NCBI RefSeq assembly: GCF_902833145.1
Contig: NZ_CADFEN010000018.1
Coordinates: 1 to 64,000, forward strand
Direction: 5' to 3'
Length of the DNA: 64,000 nucleotides
Source: Burkholderia sp. BCC0506
Lineage (GTDB): Bacteria > Pseudomonadota > Gammaproteobacteria > Burkholderiales > Burkholderiaceae
Below are positions 24,431-45,575 of the stretch, piece by piece. Numbering within the stretch: position 1 is the first letter of the stretch; every line of letters starts with the position of its first letter. The translations under genes and the position numbers were made by a program. Below the pieces are notes generated by a model, which worked only from the letters and a program-made list of their open reading frames with translations, made no database searches and was not told the origin of the DNA.

Positions 24431-24723
24431 GCTCCCGATCCCTGATTGGCCGGCCCGCCCGGCTCGCGCGATCAATGTAAGCGTGGCGTGCCTACCCAGG
24501 TGATACGAGGCTGCGAGAGTCGTAACGCGACGTAACGAAACGACGATGGCCATTCGGCCGAATCGCGAAAATGCGCCGGAACGTCTATAGTGGGTTACGG
24601 TTCGACACAATCACGACTGCGCGCTTCCCTATTGAACAGGGTAGAATTCCGCCAAACGCCTTGTGGACGAACACGCCACACACGCACAACATATTCTCTG
24701 ACGCAGGCTCCTGCCGCACCTCA

Positions 24724-25299
24724 ATGGCCAATCCCGCAGAATCCCATCCGCAAAACGACTTCATCAATTCGGCGCGCAAGGAACGTAAGCGTGTTGAAAT
24801 CTATCTCGTCAACGGCATTCGTCTGACGGGGTGTATCGAGTCGTTCGACCAGTATCTGGTGATGCTGCGCACCCCCGTGGGTCTGCAAGGCATCTACAAG
24901 CGCGCGATTTCCACGATCCAGCTCGACACGGGCGGCTCGCGCCCCGGCGGCGGCCCCCGCGGCCCGCGTACCGGCGGTCGCCCCGGCGGCCGTGAAGGCG
25001 GCGGTCATAGCCCGTACGGCTCGCACGGCGGCCCGCGCGAATCGCGCGGCGACGGCGGCTACGGCTCCCGCGAGCCGCGCGAAGGCTACGGTTCGCGCGA
25101 ACCCCGCGAGGGTTACGGCTCGCGTGAACCGCGCGAAGGCTACGGCGCGCCGCGCGAGCCGCGTGAACCGCGCGAAAGCTATGGCGCGCCGCGCGACACC
25201 GGCGACGCATCCGGCAACGCCGCGCCGTCCGACTCCCGCGGCGGCAACGGGCCGGTCATCGTGACGCGCCGCCGGCGAATCGTGCCGGACGGCCAGTAA
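24724..25299 (+). CDS. hfq2: RNA chaperone Hfq2 (long-tailed Hfq)
   Basis: Binds small RNAs and mRNAs and promotes their pairing. Residues 1-66 form the Sm fold: [21 protein letters not shown], then [15 protein letters not shown] (Sm1), then [10 protein letters not shown] (Sm2). The canonical YKH of Sm2 is YKR here (K59, R60). Residues 70-191 are a low-complexity Gly/Arg/Pro tail with three GYGSREPRE repeats (111-137) and degenerate copies. At 191 residues it is more than twice the length of standard Hfq. B. cenocepacia is known to carry such a second Hfq needed for stress survival and virulence. It has its own terminator and no operon partner. Confidence 0.92.
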
Positions 25300-26146: not shown

Positions 26147-27553
<1,407 letters not shown>

Positions 27554-38980: not shown

Positions 38981-39018
38981 GCGGAGGGGAGGACCGCCTA
39001 GGGCAATCCTCCCTCCGC
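38981..39018 (-). terminator. Hairpin between flp and tadV (probable attenuator)
   Basis: GCGGAGGGGAGGA (38981-38993) pairs with TCCTCCCTCCGC (39007-39018) with one bulged base, a strong GC stem with a 13-base loop and no clear T-tract. It lies about 50 bases downstream of the flp stop and 25 bases before tadV, a place where partial termination or 3'-end protection would favour pilin over assembly proteins. Confidence 0.5.
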
Positions 39019-39070
39019 AACACCAAGACGACTCGATGCTCCGAGGTCGTACTAATTAACGTCAGGTGGG

Positions 39071-39280
39071 TTACTTAAAGATGGTGGCCGCCGTGCAGTT
39101 CGTGGCCGTCGACGGAGCGCTGATACATGACCCGAGATTCGAGAACATGTTACCGAGACTCGTGCCGATCGACGAAGCACCCGCCAGGATCGCAACAGCG
39201 ATAAGACCCGCAATCAGCCCGTACTCGATCGCGGTAACCCCGTCTTCTTCCTTAAGGAAACGCTTGATGATTGCTTTCAT
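39071..39280 (-). CDS. flp: Flp family type IVb pilin
   Basis: A 69-residue major pilin precursor. The short basic leader MKAIIKRFLKEEDG is cut after G14, before V15-TAIEYGLIAGLIAVAI with E19 and Y20, the Flp hallmark. The hydrophobic helix runs to about 35, followed by a small domain with two Cys (GSCISAPSTATNC). ATG 39280 has GAGGAAT upstream. It is the first gene of the Tad locus and probably the most strongly expressed. Confidence 0.95.
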   Translation of the reverse strand: MKAIIKRFLKEEDGVTAIEYGLIAGLIAVAILAGASSIGTSLGNMFSNLGSCISAPSTATNCTAATIFK

Positions 39281-39881
39281 TTTATTCCTCGTGCCTGTAT
39301 TTACGTTTTCTGGCCTTTTATACGTATACGTCCCCGCATATCTGGCCGTTTTGCCCCGGACCGTTCGCCACATCCGCTGTAGCGACAACCGGGTGCGCTT
39401 TCTTTATAGGTCGCCCCGAAGGGCATTGCTCACGATTTGATGCAAGTTAACATTCGCGATAGCGCTCCTCCTCGAACGTAGTGTACCGAACCGTACATTT
39501 CCTTACATCTGCTCCCGATTCTATATCCGATCCTATTTAAATTCCAACCTCTTTCAACCACTCTAACGGAAAAAAGTCACCAGGAGCACAACGCATTTGT
39601 ACGGCCTTTCGGTACGACTTACACATAGGATTTACGATAGGTTAGATGTACACACCTAATCCACCAGTAAAACAATTGACCCGTCCACCAAGCCTGCGTG
39701 GGCCCCACGTTACGCCGCACGCGTAACGCCAATGTTGTGACGTTACGTTACGAAACGGCCGAAACCGTTCTCATTCATCCGCACTTAAACAGATTCAACA
39801 ATCTTTCAGTTCCCGTAAATTCCTTTTCCGACAAGGAATTGCCTCGTTTAAAACCCGCCGCCGAGCCGGCGGACGCCGAAA
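39281..39881. other. Divergent regulatory region, flp versus repeat-lipoprotein operon
   Basis: About 600 bases without a gene, clearly more AT-rich than the surroundings. It holds short inverted elements, including the 10-bp palindrome TATACGTATA (39319-39328), GCCC-CGAA-GGGC (39413-39424) and TAGGT/ACCTA arms near 39640-39657. These might be promoter parts or activator sites. No -24/-12 element was found facing flp in the 200 bases before its start, so flp probably uses another sigma factor. Confidence 0.5.
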
Positions 39882-39897
39882 TGGCACGACAGTTGCA
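39882..39897 (+). promoter_or_regulatory. Sigma-54 (-24/-12) promoter
   Basis: TGGCACGACAGTTGCA matches the consensus TGGCACG-N4-TTGC(A/T) at every defined base, with GG and GC at the required spacing. It faces the first repeat-lipoprotein gene; transcription would begin about 12 bases on, leaving a leader of roughly 50 bases. A sigma-54 activator gene lies at the far end of the neighbouring Tad locus. Confidence 0.85.
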
Positions 39898-39959
39898 GAG
39901 TAGTCCTCGCACCACTCAACACAACGCAGTTCACAACACATTTTTAATGCGAGGACGAA

Positions 39960-41645
39960 ATGGACATCAAGGTTATCCCTCATGGCGTGTTCCGGACGAC
40001 TCTGATCGCGGCCACCGTTGCAGCCATGCTCTCCCTCTCCGCGTGCGGCGGCTCCGGCTCCATCAGCCAGGGTCTCGGCGGCGGCTCGAGCTCCGGCGGC
40101 GGCGATACGATCTCCACGTCCGGCGGCAACGGCTCGAGCGGCACCTCGGGTACGAGCGGTACGTCGGGCACCAGCGGCACCTCGGGTACGAGCGGCACGT
40201 CCGGCACCAGCGGCACCTCGGGCACGAGCGGCACGTCCGGCACCAGTGGTACCTCCGGTACGAGCGGCACCTCCGGCACCAGCGGTACCTCGGGTGTGTC
40301 GTCGAACGCAGTGGGAACTGTCCTCGCAAGCAGCAGCAACATCATCACGAATGCCGGCAGCACCGTCTCCGGTCTCGGCTCCGTCATCGGCAGCCAGACG
40401 CTGCCGGGCGTCAATCCGGCCACCACGCAAGCCGCTGGCGGCATCGTGCAAAGCGTCGGCGGCGCGGTCACTGCCCTGGGCAACGGCCTCGGCAGCGGCC
40501 TCGGCCAGCTCGGCGCGACGAAGGATCCGGTCGGCACCACGGTCGCCAGCACCGGCGGCGTGATCAATCAGCTCGGCGGCGCAGTCACGCAAACGGGCAA
40601 TCTGGTCACGAGCCTCGGCAGCGGCCCGCTGTCGCCGCTCGCGCCGGTCACGGGCGCCGTCGGCGGCCTCGTCACGACGGTCGGCGGCGCCGTGTCGAAC
40701 GGCGGCACCACGCTCACCAACGTGCTGTCGACCGGCCCGATCCAGCAAGTCACGCAAACGGTCAGCTCGGCCATCACGCCGATCACGACGATGGTCGGCC
40801 AGACGACCCAGACGATCGGCACGGCAACCGGCCTCGGTGCGCCGGTCAACACGCTGCTCGGCACGGTCGGCAACGGGCTGAACCAGGCCGGCGCCCTGCT
40901 CGCATCGACGGGCGGCAACCCGGTCACCACGGGCCTCGGCAACACCGTCTCGTCGACGGGCAACACCGTGAAGGCCGTCGGCGGCCTGCTCACGGGCGGC
41001 ACCGGCGGCGTGACCAACCCGCTCGCCCCGCTCACGGGCCTCGTGTCGACGGTCACCGGCGCACTCGGCGGCGCAACGGGTGGCGGCAGCGGCCCGCTCG
41101 CGCCGGTTACCGGCCTCGTCTCGACGGTCACCGGTGCGCTCGGCGGCGCGGCAGGCGGCAGCGGCGGCCCGCTTGCTCCGGTCACGGGCCTCGTCTCCAC
41201 GGTCACCGGTGCGCTCGGCGGCGCGGCAGGCGGCAGCGGCGGTCCGCTCGCTCCGGTCACGGGCCTCGTCTCCACGGTCACCGGCGCACTCGGCGGCGCG
41301 GCAGGCGGCAGCGGCGGTCCGCTCGCTCCGGTCACGGGTCTCGTCTCGACGGTCACCGGCGCACTCGGCGGCGCCGCGGGCGGCACCAGCGGTGGCCCGC
41401 TCGCGCCGGTCACGGGTCTCCTCGGCGCGGTCACGGGCGCGCTCGGCGGCGTAACGGGTGGCGCAGGCGGCAGCAGCCCGCTCGCCCCGGTGACGAACGC
41501 CGTCTCCACGGTGACGAGCACGGTCGGCGTACCGGCACTGAGCGGCGGCACGGGTGCCGTCACGAGCTCGGGCGCGTCGTCGAATCCGCTTGCGCCCGTC
41601 ACGTCGCTGATCGGCGGCCTGCTCGGCGGCACGCACGGCAAGTAA
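39960..41645 (+). CDS. Collagen-like (Gly-Thr-Ser) repeat lipoprotein
   Basis: A 561-residue predicted outer-membrane lipoprotein. Signal peptide with lipobox LSAC near residue 29, then a Gly/Ser linker, then 17 consecutive GTS triplets (about 61-111), a Gly-x-y collagen-type pattern. A Val/Gly/Thr-rich region follows with KDPVGTTV motifs. About six units of 25 residues built on GPLAPVTGLVSTVTGALGG lie near 354-507. The C-terminus is PLAPVTSLIGGLLGG. No catalytic motif is seen. It is paralogous to the next gene. Related Burkholderia proteins are annotated as collagen-like; a surface or adhesion role is inferred. It is the first gene behind the sigma-54 promoter. Confidence 0.8.
   Translation: MDIKVIPHGVFRTTLIAATVAAMLSLSACGGSGSISQGLGGGSSSGGGDTISTSGGNGSSGTSGTSGTSGTSGTSGTSGTSGTSGTSGTSGTSGTSGTSGTSGTSGTSGTSGVSSNAVGTVLASSSNIITNAGSTVSGLGSVIGSQTLPGVNPATTQAAGGIVQSVGGAVTALGNGLGSGLGQLGATKDPVGTTVASTGGVINQLGGAVTQTGNLVTSLGSGPLSPLAPVTGAVGGLVTTVGGAVSNGGTTLTNVLSTGPIQQVTQTVSSAITPITTMVGQTTQTIGTATGLGAPVNTLLGTVGNGLNQAGALLASTGGNPVTTGLGNTVSSTGNTVKAVGGLLTGGTGGVTNPLAPLTGLVSTVTGALGGATGGGSGPLAPVTGLVSTVTGALGGAAGGSGGPLAPVTGLVSTVTGALGGAAGGSGGPLAPVTGLVSTVTGALGGAAGGSGGPLAPVTGLVSTVTGALGGAAGGTSGGPLAPVTGLLGAVTGALGGVTGGAGGSSPLAPVTNAVSTVTSTVGVPALSGGTGAVTSSGASSNPLAPVTSLIGGLLGGTHGK
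40140..40301 (+). repeat. Tandem 9-bp Gly-Thr-Ser coding repeat
   Basis: Seventeen 9-bp units encode Gly-Thr-Ser (40140-40292), then one Gly-Val-Ser unit. Ser codons mostly alternate between TCG or TCC and AGC or AGT, so the DNA repeat is closer to 18 bp. Copy number can change in frame by slippage. Confidence 0.9.
41019..41480 (+). repeat. 75-bp tandem repeats (25-residue PLAPVTG units)
   Basis: About six near-identical units encode PLAPVTGLVSTVTGALGG plus a Gly/Ala/Ser linker. The DNA is highly conserved between the central units, a sign of recent duplication or gene conversion. Similar units occur in the next gene (42751-43010). Confidence 0.88.
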
Positions 41646-41685: not shown

Positions 41686-43110
41686 ATGTCCCAGCAACGT
41701 TCCATCACGACGGCCGCGCTGCGCCAGTGGCGCGCGCCCCTCACCGCCTTCGCCGCGGCGTGCCTGCTGGCCGCCTGCGGCGGTGGCGGTGTCAGCTCGC
41801 CGCCCTCCAGCAGCAACGACAACAACAATCCGAGCACGAGCGGCACGTCCGGGACGAGCGGCACCAGCGGCTCGTCGACCGGCACCAAGGGGGTCATCAG
41901 CACGGTCGGCCAGACGGCCACCGACCTCGGCAGCACGGTCGGCAACATCAGCCTGCCGGGCCTCGGCGACGGCGTGACGAAGGGTGTCGGCAGCACGCTG
42001 TCCAGCACCGGCACGATCGTCGGCGCGGCAGCCGATGCGGTGAGCAACGGGCTGGGACAGATCGGCTCGACGAAGGACCCGGTCGGCACCACGGTGGCCG
42101 GTCTCGGCAACGTCGTCGGTGCGACCAGCAACACGGTGTCCGGCCTGAGCTCGACGGTCAAGGCGCTGGGCACGGGCCCGCTGGCGCCGCTCGCGCCGGT
42201 CACGACGCCGGTCGGCACCGTGCTCGACACGGTGGCCAACGGCCTGACGGCCGCCGGCACGACGATCGGCTCGACGCTGTCGTCGGGCGCCGTGCAGCAG
42301 GTCACGCAACCGATCAGCTCGGCGATCACGCCGCTCGTGATCACCGCCGGCCAGGTCACGCAGCAGGTCGGCACGACGACCGGCCTCGGCCAACCCGTCT
42401 CGGGCCTGCTCGGCCAGATCGGCGGTGCAATCAGCTCGGCCGGCAAGCAGGTCGGCGGCACGTCGAGCCAGCCGCTCGTCGGCGACGTCGGCCAGCTCGT
42501 GACCGCGGTGGGCAACACCGTGACCAACGCAGGCGGCCTCGTCAACCCGAACGGCCCGAATGGCGCAGCACCGATCCCCGGCCTGATCACGAGCCTCGTC
42601 GGCGGCTCGACGGCAACCGTCCAGAACGGCTCGTCGTCGGGTTCCGGTTCGACGAACCCGCTCGGCGGCTTGTTGTCGGGTCTCGGCTCGACGCCGCTCG
42701 GCTCGCTCACGGGCACGCTCGGCGGCGCAACGGGCGGCTCGGGCAGCGGCCCGCTCGCACCGGTGACCGGCCTCGTCTCCACGGTGACCGGCGCACTGGG
42801 TGGCGCAGCAGGCGGCGGCAGCGGCCCGCTCGCGCCCGTCACGAATCTCGTGTCGACGGTCACCGGCACGCTCGGCGGCGCAACGGGTGGCGCGGGCGGT
42901 GCAAACCCTCTCGCGCCCGTCACCGGTTTGCTGAATACTGTCACCGGAGCAGTTGGCGGTGCAGCAGGGTCCGGGGGCTCGAGCCCGCTCGCGCCGGTCA
43001 CGTCGCTGGTCGGCAGCGTGTCGGGTACGGCATCGTCGGGCAGCAGCTCGACGGGCCTGCTGGCACCGGTCACGGGGTTGCTGGGTACGCTGGGCAGCGT
43101 TGGCAAGTAA
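41686..43110 (+). CDS. Repeat lipoprotein, paralogue of the collagen-like protein
   Basis: A 474-residue lipoprotein with lipobox LLAAC near residue 28 (AACLLAACGGGG), a Ser/Asn linker, only three GTS triplets (41842-41868), then the same Gly/Val/Thr-rich body (STKDPVGTTVAGLGNVVG). About four PLAPVTGLVSTVTGALGG units lie near 356-445, and the C-terminus is LLAPVTGLLGTLGSVGK. It starts 40 bases after the first paralogue, in the same operon, with GAGGAG before the ATG. The two genes arose by duplication and differ mainly in repeat number. A cell-surface location is inferred from the lipobox. Confidence 0.8.
   Translation: MSQQRSITTAALRQWRAPLTAFAAACLLAACGGGGVSSPPSSSNDNNNPSTSGTSGTSGTSGSSTGTKGVISTVGQTATDLGSTVGNISLPGLGDGVTKGVGSTLSSTGTIVGAAADAVSNGLGQIGSTKDPVGTTVAGLGNVVGATSNTVSGLSSTVKALGTGPLAPLAPVTTPVGTVLDTVANGLTAAGTTIGSTLSSGAVQQVTQPISSAITPLVITAGQVTQQVGTTTGLGQPVSGLLGQIGGAISSAGKQVGGTSSQPLVGDVGQLVTAVGNTVTNAGGLVNPNGPNGAAPIPGLITSLVGGSTATVQNGSSSGSGSTNPLGGLLSGLGSTPLGSLTGTLGGATGGSGSGPLAPVTGLVSTVTGALGGAAGGGSGPLAPVTNLVSTVTGTLGGATGGAGGANPLAPVTGLLNTVTGAVGGAAGSGGSSPLAPVTSLVGSVSGTASSGSSSTGLLAPVTGLLGTLGSVGK
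42751..43010 (+). repeat. PLAPVTG-unit tandem repeats in second paralogue
   Basis: About four units of 75-80 bp encode variants of PLAPVTGLVSTVTGALGG. They are more diverged from each other than those of the upstream gene. Confidence 0.8.
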
Positions 43111-43254: not shown

Positions 43255-44940
43255 ATGAAATCCAGACTCGACAGATGGATGATGCTGCTCGCTATCGCGG
43301 CGGCAGGTACGGCACAGGCACAAACGCGCGTCGGCGGTAACCCGCTCGACTCCCTTCCCCAGATCAACGCGCCGAAGACAGGGCCGAACGTCACCGTTCA
43401 GGTGGCGCCGCAGGCGCCGCAATTGCAGGAGCTGTTGTCGCGACACCTGACGCCGAAGACGTTCCAGGTCGAAGGTGTGAAGTCGATACCGTTCGAGGAA
43501 ATCACGCGCCGCTTCACGCCGCTCGTCGGCAAGGACATCACGATCGGCGAGCTGATCGAAACCGCCAACGGCGTGACGACGCTGTACCAGGAACGCGGCT
43601 ACGCGCTGTCGTTCGCGTTCGTTCCCGCGCAGACGTTCGAGGACGGCGTCGTGCGCATCACGGTGGTCGAAGGCTACGTGGCGGACGTCAAGGTCACCGG
43701 CAAACCCGGCGCGATGGAACCGAAGATCCGCGCGATTGCCGCGCATATCACGGCCGACCGACCGCTGCGCCGCGCGACGTTCGAGCGCTACGTGAACACG
43801 TTCGGCCTGCTGCCCGGCCTCACGGTGAAGGCGAATGTCCCGCCCCCGCAAACCACCGACGGCGCGACGACGCTCGAGCTCGCGGTGGATCGCAAGCCGT
43901 TCAACGTCAGCACGGGTATCGACTTCAACCATCCGGGCGTCCAGGGCCTCATCACCGCGACCGAGAACGGCCTCACGCGGTTCGGCGAGCAACTGAGCAT
44001 CTCGGCGCTCGCGCCGCCGGGACGCGACAAGCAAACCTACTTCGCGTTCAGCGGCGCCCTGCCCGTCGGCAGCAGCGGCCTGATCACGCGCCTCGATGCC
44101 AGCACGTATCGCGGCAAGCCGACCGACAACCCGGGGTTGCCGTCGACCATCGAGCGCACCGTAAAGAACGAGAAACTTGGTCTTTCGGCCTCCTATCCGA
44201 TCTTGCTGAACAACCAGCGCAGCCTGCTCGGCACGGTGTCGGGTTATGCGTCGCACAACGAGGACCGCTACCAGAACAAGATCAACGGCGCGAGTCTCGA
44301 CAACCGATCGCAGGTTCGCGTGCTGCAAATGCAGCTCGACTACACGAGTGTTCAGCCGAAACAGGTACGCAAACTGAGCATCAACGTCGCCAAGGCGTTC
44401 GACATCCTCGGCGCATCGAAATCGCAAATCGGCGTGAACGGCGGCACCACGACGGTTTATCCGGACCCGACGTCGCTGACCTTCGTCCGCACCGGCGCGA
44501 CCTTCACGCAGACGAACGAATGGCCGTTCCGGATCGGCACGTCGGTTTCGCTGACCGGCCAATACAGCCCCGACTCGCTGCCGACGTCCGAGCAGATCTC
44601 GTTCGGCTCGACGCGCTATGCGCTCGGCTATCAACCTGGCGAAGCGTCAGGCGACTCGGGCTGGGGGATGTCGCTGGAGGTCAACCGCGGCTTCACGCCG
44701 GGCTGGACGTATCTGAAAACGATCACGCCGTACATCGCGTACGACATGGCGCGCGTGTATCTGCACGCGGGAACGCCGTCACCGAGCCGCATGTCGTCGG
44801 TCGGCCTCGGCGTGCGGCTTACGGACAGCCGCTACTACAGCCTCGACCTGAACGTCGCCAAACCGGTGGGCGATGCGCCGGTCGAAAGCGCGTCACGCAG
44901 CCCACGCATCAACGCCGCGTTCTCGTATCAGCTCAACTGA
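43255..44940 (+). CDS. TpsB/ShlB/FhaC-family outer-membrane transporter
   Basis: A 561-residue two-partner-secretion-type transporter of the Omp85 superfamily. The signal peptide ends near GTAQAQ (about 23). A POTRA domain lies near 68-150 (FQVEGVKSIPFEEITRRFTP, then TTLYQERGYALSFAFVPAQ). The 16-stranded barrel follows with the family signatures FNVSTGIDFNHPGVQGLITA and ALGYQPGEASGDSGWGMSLEV, ending at NAAFSYQLN. It begins 144 bases after the second repeat lipoprotein on the same strand. No TpsA-type haemagglutinin or haemolysin gene lies in the window, so its cargo may be the repeat lipoproteins or a distant protein. Confidence 0.88.
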   Translation: MKSRLDRWMMLLAIAAAGTAQAQTRVGGNPLDSLPQINAPKTGPNVTVQVAPQAPQLQELLSRHLTPKTFQVEGVKSIPFEEITRRFTPLVGKDITIGELIETANGVTTLYQERGYALSFAFVPAQTFEDGVVRITVVEGYVADVKVTGKPGAMEPKIRAIAAHITADRPLRRATFERYVNTFGLLPGLTVKANVPPPQTTDGATTLELAVDRKPFNVSTGIDFNHPGVQGLITATENGLTRFGEQLSISALAPPGRDKQTYFAFSGALPVGSSGLITRLDASTYRGKPTDNPGLPSTIERTVKNEKLGLSASYPILLNNQRSLLGTVSGYASHNEDRYQNKINGASLDNRSQVRVLQMQLDYTSVQPKQVRKLSINVAKAFDILGASKSQIGVNGGTTTVYPDPTSLTFVRTGATFTQTNEWPFRIGTSVSLTGQYSPDSLPTSEQISFGSTRYALGYQPGEASGDSGWGMSLEVNRGFTPGWTYLKTITPYIAYDMARVYLHAGTPSPSRMSSVGLGVRLTDSRYYSLDLNVAKPVGDAPVESASRSPRINAAFSYQLN

Positions 44941-45113: not shown

Positions 45114-45575
45114 ATGATTCAACTGACCCGCCCGTTGCGCGCAATCGCCATTGCCGGCGCCCTGCTCACGTGCGCTGCGCCCACGTTCGCGCAAGCCGAC
45201 AGCCCCGTCGGCATGTGGCAGACGATCGACGACAACACCCATCAACCGAAGGCACTCGTGCAGATCGCCGAGGACGGCGACGGCTCGCTGACGGGCAAGG
45301 TCGTCAAGGGCCTGGGCGCGAACGATACGCCCGATCGTCGCTGCACCGCATGCACGGACGAACGCAAGGACCAGCTCATCAAGGGCATGACGATCATCAA
45401 GGCGATGAAGAAGGAAGGCGACCACTGGGACGGCGGCAACATTCTCGACCCGGAGAACGGCAAGGTCTACAAGTGCAAGATGACGCTTGAAGACGGCGGC
45501 CAGAAGCTCGTGGTGCGCGGCTACATCGGCGTGTCGCTGCTCGGTCGCTCGCAAACCTGGATTCGCCAGCAATAA
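45114..45575 (+). CDS. DUF2147 exported protein
   Basis: A 153-residue predicted periplasmic protein with signal peptide ending near PTFAQADS (about 26). The DUF2147 core is SPVGMWQTIDDNTHQPKALV, then GSLTGKVVKGLG, then CTACTDERKDQLIKGMTII, then WDGGNILDPENGKVYKCKMT, then VRGYIGVSLLGRSQTW. Three Cys lie in the middle. ATG 45114 sits six bases after AAGGAGG; an ATG at 45108 touches the Shine-Dalgarno and is unlikely. It is separated from the TpsB-like gene by a terminator, so it is probably expressed on its own. The function of the family is unknown. Confidence 0.85.
   Translation: MIQLTRPLRAIAIAGALLTCAAPTFAQADSPVGMWQTIDDNTHQPKALVQIAEDGDGSLTGKVVKGLGANDTPDRRCTACTDERKDQLIKGMTIIKAMKKEGDHWDGGNILDPENGKVYKCKMTLEDGGQKLVVRGYIGVSLLGRSQTWIRQQ

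Follow-up and report, generated by a model that had tools for sequence, protein, structure and literature searches.

A conserved, very probable sigma-54 promoter ahead of a collagen-like lipoprotein operon in Burkholderia and its proposed activation by GtrR

We propose that positions 39882-39897 of the window (the whole stretch of DNA analysed, 64,000 nucleotides of contig C18 in a 7.29 Mb, 45-contig Burkholderia genome) are the sigma-54 promoter of an operon for two lipoproteins and a TpsB-type transporter, that this promoter would be switched on by the activator GtrR through boxes at 39708-39752, and that it belongs to a small genus-wide adhesin regulon. On the comparisons presented below, this reading as a whole has a probability of roughly 0.77.

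The promoter element and the genes around it

The element TGGCACGACAGTTGCA lies on the + strand at 39882-39897, with zero mismatches to the consensus TGGCACRNNNNTTGCW; ten bases separate its GG at -24 from its GC at -12, both inside TGGCACR-N4-TTGCW. It is the sole exact match to that consensus within the window. An earlier sequence-only reading of this DNA had called an exact and correctly spaced -24/-12 element here, about 60 bases before the start codon of the repeat-lipoprotein operon and facing away from flp, and both points held, the element lying upstream of the ATG at 39960. Judged from the element, the transcription start is predicted at 39908 (+), 12 nt past the GC of the -12 element, and is followed by a 52-nt leader, an AGGA ribosome-binding site and the ATG. 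The main text of the J2315 start-site paper, searched for terms related to the site, contains none of them.

The earlier reading had also taken exact matches to be rare enough by chance to decide the matter, which proved overstated. The exact consensus occurs eight times in the genome, versus two occurrences of the reversed pattern, and 21.9 Mb of third-order Markov sequence also gave eight matches, or about 2.7 per genome; with about 0.02 matches expected in 64 kb and one seen, a single exact match is unusual in the window, yet it is no proof by itself. In a GC-rich genome, and in spite of the enrichment, one exact -24/-12 match alone is weak evidence. We regard conservation as stronger evidence for the promoter than the exactness of the match. 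A scan with the TpsB protein provided 36 named Burkholderia loci, two of which (L007 and L031) stop short of the site, and in all 34 usable loci GG-N10-GC is kept with its spacing upstream of the orthologous BCAL1524-type lipoprotein gene (exact in 29, TGGCATG in four and TGGTACG in one). The element at 39882-39897 is very probably a real sigma-54 promoter upstream of a collagen-like surface-lipoprotein operon.

The first operon gene (39960..41645, +) encodes a Collagen_mid lipoprotein of the BCAL1524 type, with (GTS)n repeats, a PF15984 match (E 4.5e-67) and the lipobox LSAC. It is followed by a second Collagen_mid lipoprotein, of the BCAL1523 type (41686..43110, +), recognized by its PF15984 match (E 1.1e-63) and translation, and by a TpsB-type outer-membrane transporter of the BCAL1522 type (43255..44940, +), recognized by its POTRA_2 and ShlB domain matches. 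A gene for a DUF2147 protein of the BCAL1520 type, assigned by domain match and gene order, lies at 45114..45575 (+) and may or may not be on the same transcript. The operon order and gene lengths match BCAL1524-1523-1522 (and 1520) of B. cenocepacia J2315, beside the flp/tad cluster (PMC10224339), and most of the named relatives nearest to the locus are species of the Burkholderia cepacia complex. PF15984 matches above the family cut-off, a lipobox and GXX repeats were all found, as expected of Collagen_mid lipoproteins. The operon does not qualify as a two-partner secretion pair: TpsB domains are present, and no TPS-domain match was obtained among the operon proteins scanned. TpsB-type transporters adjoin Collagen_mid-type lipoproteins in other genera and families too (L213, L214, L218), and the lipoproteins may be the cargo, an unusual use of such a transporter.

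Between 39050 and 45700, a sigma-70 scan reported a total of three sigma-70-like sites: a pair at 39518-39557 on the flp strand and one at 43100. Upstream of the operon on the + strand this simple scan reported none. A terminator scan of the same interval gave two terminator-like sites, the predicted sites being fewer than in shuffles, and an Rfam scan of 39000-40200 gave no RNA element match.

The sequence-only reading had further placed two surface-structure loci under one control system. A sigma-54 promoter was supported for the lipoprotein operon and not for flp/tad: in the alignment of 34 loci, the part of the intergenic region next to flp contains no conserved -24/-12 element, and a scan with at most one mismatch to TGGC-N7-TTGCW found no sigma-54 promoter for the divergent flp pilin gene (39071..39280, -). 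A flp-side TTGCA, conserved in most loci, was rejected as a sigma-54 element because the GG at -24 is missing. Any shared control of flp would therefore have to take an indirect route or use another kind of promoter. As judged by sequence, the stronger tie of the promoter is to two collagen-like lipoprotein genes elsewhere in the genome.

Other conserved blocks were observed between flp and the lipoprotein gene. On the flp side, the block TTGATGCAAGTTAACATTCGCGATAG at 39437-39462 is strongly conserved in most loci, and a conserved TTCTTTATA lies closer to flp; together they look like a flp operator and promoter, with no sigma-54 fit. The block TTACGATAGGTTAGATGTACACACCTAATCC at 39632-39662 contains a near-perfect TTAG..CTAA dyad, and the core of the block (TTACGATAGGTTAGAT) is almost invariant across the 34 aligned loci. 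A mostly conserved TTCCTT-N7-AAGGAA dyad at 39820-39838, about 43 bp upstream of the sigma-54 element, is a possible site for a further regulator.

Enhancer-like boxes and the shared promoter layout

Sigma-54 enhancer sites commonly lie about 80-200 bp upstream of the promoter. A search for such sites, as the earlier reading had recommended, revealed conserved putative boxes at 39708-39752, which are likely to be the enhancer of the promoter at 39882. Proposed GtrR box 1 is the dyad CGTTACG-N7-CGTAACG (39708..39728), its arms near-invariant and its spacer variable in the 34 loci; proposed GtrR box 2, CGTTACGTTACG (39741..39752), keeps a near-fixed distance to box 1 and to the promoter. The exact GTTACG-N7-CGTAAC dyad has one genomic occurrence, at box 1. 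The single box GTTACGTTACG proved too loose (two genomic matches versus six in the reversed control), and the dyad, searched with one mismatch tolerated, had fewer matches in the genome than its control, so that only the longer box patterns discriminate.

The 39-base pattern GTTACG-N7-CGTAACG-N12-CGTTACG, located at 39709-39747, occurs without mismatch in 60 of 61 Burkholderia genomes. Of 337 genomes from other genera of the family, none has the exact pattern and 12 contain matches with one or two mismatches. The Burkholderia genome without the exact pattern, G240, does match the composite pattern described below, and its dyad probably has a six-base spacer, like that of the matching named locus L015. 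Thirty enhancer loci were fetched from this search. The distance from the start of the enhancer to the start of the TGGCAY/TTGCA element is 172-188 bp (172-175 in 28 loci, 184 and 188 in the other two). Of the 30 loci, 29 are followed by a called lipobox protein, L082 being the one in which none was called.

The genome contains four Collagen_mid genes, two of which form part of the operon. Each of the other two, which are unlinked, is preceded by CGTAAC-N11/12-GTTACG and by a sigma-54 element 38-39 nt from the ATG (TGGCACGGTAGATGCT and TGGCGCGGAATTTGCA). The composite pattern CGTAACN{9,16}GTTACGN{115,145}TGGCN8TGC, which joins enhancer half-sites and sigma-54 core, matches exactly three times in the 7.29 Mb, each time at a Collagen_mid operon (the flp-linked one and the two unlinked paralogues). 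Over 61 Burkholderia genomes, four of which differ from the 61 searched with the 39-base pattern, it gave 141 matches versus two with the reversed control, and it was absent from 21.9 Mb of Markov sequence. Matches of the flp-linked type, judged by sequence, occur in 60 of these 61 genomes; the exception, G181, has none, probably because its -24 sequence is TGGT, as in the similar named locus L030. The same layout at two unlinked paralogues suggests that the promoter is one of a small adhesin regulon. This layout, shared by the operon and the two paralogues, appears to be new here, neither the promoter nor the regulator being given in the accessible parts of PMC10224339 and PMC10303873.

The layout was followed among relatives of these genes. 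Class A comprises 24 loci (L061, L098-L120), of which L106 and L120 are short and of unassignable orientation; all 22 loci used have a half-site pair and a sigma-54-like element. The element lies at -54/-55 in 17 loci; in L104, L109, L110 and L119 it was placed through the composite pattern, the called start being too far upstream, and in L118 the element TGGCATGGTAGCTGCT has a gap of 111 bp, just beyond the composite range. The expected negatives came out as predicted. Six of six counterparts of the second operon gene (L121-L126) have neither a half-site pair nor a properly placed sigma-54 element, two single half-sites and two loose CGGC...TGC matches being present among them. A fifth paralogue, taken as BCAL2397-like, has no half-site and no element in the 350 bp upstream in six of six loci.

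Between the first GTTACG in the right-hand box and the -24 element, the gap measures 133-145 at flp-linked promoters (133-134 in 43 of 50), mostly 131-134 in class A, mostly 140 with a group at 128 in class B, and 116-117 in the glycosyltransferase type. Some of the steps between these classes are near one helical turn and others are not.

Forty further regions, selected by hand from the composite matches, comprised 28 before class A or B lipoproteins (three of which, L145, L165 and L171, were assigned by lipobox and N-terminus alone, the stretch ending at a contig end), five flp-linked ones, five before other genes and two, L162 and L169, that look like chance. The two chance-like composite matches lie on G110 C1 and G240 C148. 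The other genes are a large repeat protein in L163, L168 and L170, and in L164 and L167 a glycosyltransferase gene with a further membrane-protein-like frame, Pfam having been run on L167 only. By genome, the composite precedes the large repeat protein in G401, G382 and G333, with no Pfam match in the two proteins scanned (L163 and L170), and in G401 and G382 it also precedes a gene cluster headed by the glycosyltransferase (Pfam match in L167). The repeat protein and the glycosyltransferase cluster are possible extra targets; in one Burkholderia clade the regulon seems to have extended to them.

The activator GtrR and alternative explanations

A sigma-54 activator is encoded in the same region, as the sequence-only reading had pointed out, and the comparisons below tie it to the promoter, gene and enhancer being found together in several genera. 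The gene, gtrR (26147..27538, -), encodes a sigma-54 AAA+ domain (PF00158, E 1.3e-61) with a GSFTGA loop and a Fis-type HTH (PF02954, E 1e-10); its receiver-like N-terminus has no Pfam match and resembles a degenerate receiver. GSFTGA or GAFTGA, together with the Walker A sequence GETGVGK, was found in five of five aligned GtrR sequences. The protein is near-identical over its full length to PDB 7vbs/7vbw, deposited as a sigma-54-dependent regulator; its length of 463 aa fits GtrR, and the N-terminus of the PDB chain is the peptide encoded by the gtrR cloning primer (PMC8174753). The gene lies at the far end of the adjacent tad pilus cluster, a position consistent with BCAL1536, and on these matches we identify the activator as GtrR (BCAL1536). 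Beyond the gtrR end of the cluster, a 242-aa frame at 24571-25299 has an Hfq domain and is longer than the usual Hfq; Burkholderia carries a second, longer Hfq.

The bclACB genes are a target of GtrR. They are BDSF-regulated (PMC8174753), cepI is a published GtrR target (PMC12838280), and GtrR itself is a partner of the BDSF/c-di-GMP receptor RpfR (PMC12838280, PMC9684580). At E<=1e-150, gtrR was found in 60 of 61 Burkholderia genomes, the miss being G400, which is 82% complete. In an order-wide draw of 150 genomes including the source genome, GtrR was found at E<=1e-100 in five, namely the source genome and four of the 149 others, all four outside Burkholderia.

About 159 kb of flank was read around four distant gtrR genes, giving eight regions, the paired regions overlapping at gtrR. 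In three of the four genomes gtrR has tad and Collagen_mid-type genes in its neighbourhood. Half-site clusters (starts at most 30 bp apart) occur nowhere in the eight regions except at these Collagen_mid-type operons, where they start 72-174 bp before the starts of sigma-54-like elements. In G009 (same family, 75% identity) the locus is syntenic, and GTTACG-N8-CGTAACG and CGTTACGTTACG begin 135-174 bp ahead of TGGCACGCGTCCTGCA, which precedes a Collagen_mid gene. G408, from another family, has two GTTACG whose starts lie 150 and 162 bp ahead of TGGCACGCTCTTTGCG, again followed by a Collagen_mid gene. A third family is represented by G519, in which four CGTAAC begin 72-89 bp ahead of TGGCACATGTCTTGCT; next come a diguanylate-cyclase gene and then a repeat lipoprotein similar to that of the window (tblastn, 39% over 147 aa). 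In G492, gtrR and tad are present, but the region fetched contains neither boxes nor a Collagen_mid match, and a repeat search in the outgroup promoters gave little beyond the half-sites. The 14 residues of the GtrR recognition helix are identical in five aligned sequences except for the first L, which is I in L211. This co-occurrence of gtrR and boxes across genera is, in our judgement, the main evidence that GtrR would read the boxes. In one distant genome the gene that comes first after the boxes and the sigma-54-like element (L218:1492-2589) encodes a GGDEF diguanylate cyclase (PF00990, E 5e-42), pointing to a link with c-di-GMP within that operon.

In the proposed mechanism, GtrR would bind the CGTAAC/GTTACG half-sites at 39708-39752 and oligomerise on them, the DNA would loop so that GtrR contacts the sigma-54 polymerase waiting at 39882, and ATP hydrolysis by GtrR would open the promoter, with a start near 39908 and a transcript for the two Collagen_mid lipoproteins and the TpsB-type transporter. 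Because GtrR is the published partner of RpfR, the operon would be expected to respond to the BDSF quorum-sensing signal and to rise with cell density. GtrR binding, looping, RpoN dependence and the BDSF response are what we infer from the arrangement of these sites. We also lean, with less assurance, towards GtrR being a dedicated sigma-54 activator of a genus-wide collagen-like adhesin regulon (three promoters here) that reads CGTAAC/GTTACG, through which RpfR would control tad (by linkage), the lipoproteins and the TpsB exporter. It counts against the proposal that cepI is not among the three composite matches in the genome; cepI may be read differently, or the box may not be the sole GtrR site. 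G492, the two chance-like composite matches and the 12 genomes of other genera with near matches to the enhancer also weigh against it. Published expression data are consistent with the proposed control and not specific to it: BCAL1520, 1523 and 1524 rise together with flp genes on contact with host-membrane vesicles (PMC7970998), and in a cepR mutant BCAL1520 and several pilus-assembly genes fall, BCAL1523/1524 not being in the accessible part of the table (PMC2753556).

The promoter element, the enhancer-like boxes, their near-fixed spacing and conservation, the three-promoter set and the co-occurrence with gtrR were observed directly, and other explanations can be weighed against them. That the -24/-12 sequence is a chance match in a GC-rich genome, the operon being read from a sigma-70 promoter, would fit the eight exact matches genome-wide against two to three expected, a setting in which single matches mislead. 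The element nevertheless keeps its position in all 34 loci that reach it, and the simple scan reported no + strand sigma-70-like site upstream of the operon; given this conservation and the composite counts, we reject a chance match as very improbable.

It is unlikely, though worth serious attention, that the promoter is a true sigma-54 promoter whose boxes belong to another enhancer-binding protein, the gtrR-tad linkage being incidental. A search with the sigma-54 AAA+ region of GtrR finds 20 matches in the genome, 19 besides GtrR itself, and the accessible parts of PMC12838280, PMC9684580 and PMC8174753 describe GtrR targets without reference to sigma-54; set against this are the joint occurrence of boxes and gtrR in other genera and families and the near-identical recognition helix, in a comparison that covers GtrR alone among the activators there. 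Considerably less probable is that the boxes bind a non-sigma-54 adhesion regulator, for instance of the CRP or LuxR type, and that the sigma-54 element is driven separately. The further conserved blocks at 39437-39462, 39632-39662 and 39820-39838 and the effect of CepR on neighbouring cluster genes (PMC2753556) would suit such a regulator, but the near-fixed distance from boxes to sigma-54 element at three different promoters, and the joint absence of boxes and element at the fifth paralogue, argue against this reading.

Relation to known systems

A single consensus match, weak in a GC-rich genome, becomes a candidate regulon through conservation and layout. GtrR is a published global regulator of B. 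cenocepacia and gains here a candidate DNA box and a candidate promoter, with a short list of targets. A specific candidate route of control also emerges for the collagen-like adhesins induced on contact, no regulator of which is named in the accessible parts of PMC10224339 and PMC10303873. If the proposal is true, an entire adhesion programme would come under the control of RpfR, the BDSF/c-di-GMP receptor.

VpsR and FleQ, like GtrR, have a degenerate receiver-like N-terminus and a Fis-type HTH. These c-di-GMP-binding regulators of the enhancer-binding type also share with GtrR an AAA+ domain and surface-matrix targets (PMC5552954). VpsR works without RpoN (PMC5552954), whereas in GtrR the sigma-54 contact loop is preserved, as are the -24/-12 elements of its proposed targets.

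The BerB-RpoN-berA system of B. cenocepacia (PMC5552954, PMC9684580) resembles the proposed GtrR system in that an enhancer-binding protein tied to RpfR and c-di-GMP serves an RpoN-dependent surface component of biofilms. It differs in its activator gene, in its target, which is an exopolysaccharide regulator, and in having been tested at the bench, whereas the GtrR case is built from sequence; deletion of gtrR left the BerB-controlled colony phenotype unaltered (PMC9684580). In RpfR-GtrR signalling (PMC12838280, PMC8174753) the activator is the same protein as that of the window, and the accessible parts of these two papers give no GtrR box, sigma-54 requirement or collagen-like target. Among the collagen-like lipoproteins of the B. 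cepacia complex (PMC10224339, PMC10303873), BCAL1523 and BCAL1524 are the genes of this very operon, and BCAL1524 promotes auto-aggregation and occurs in outer-membrane vesicles.
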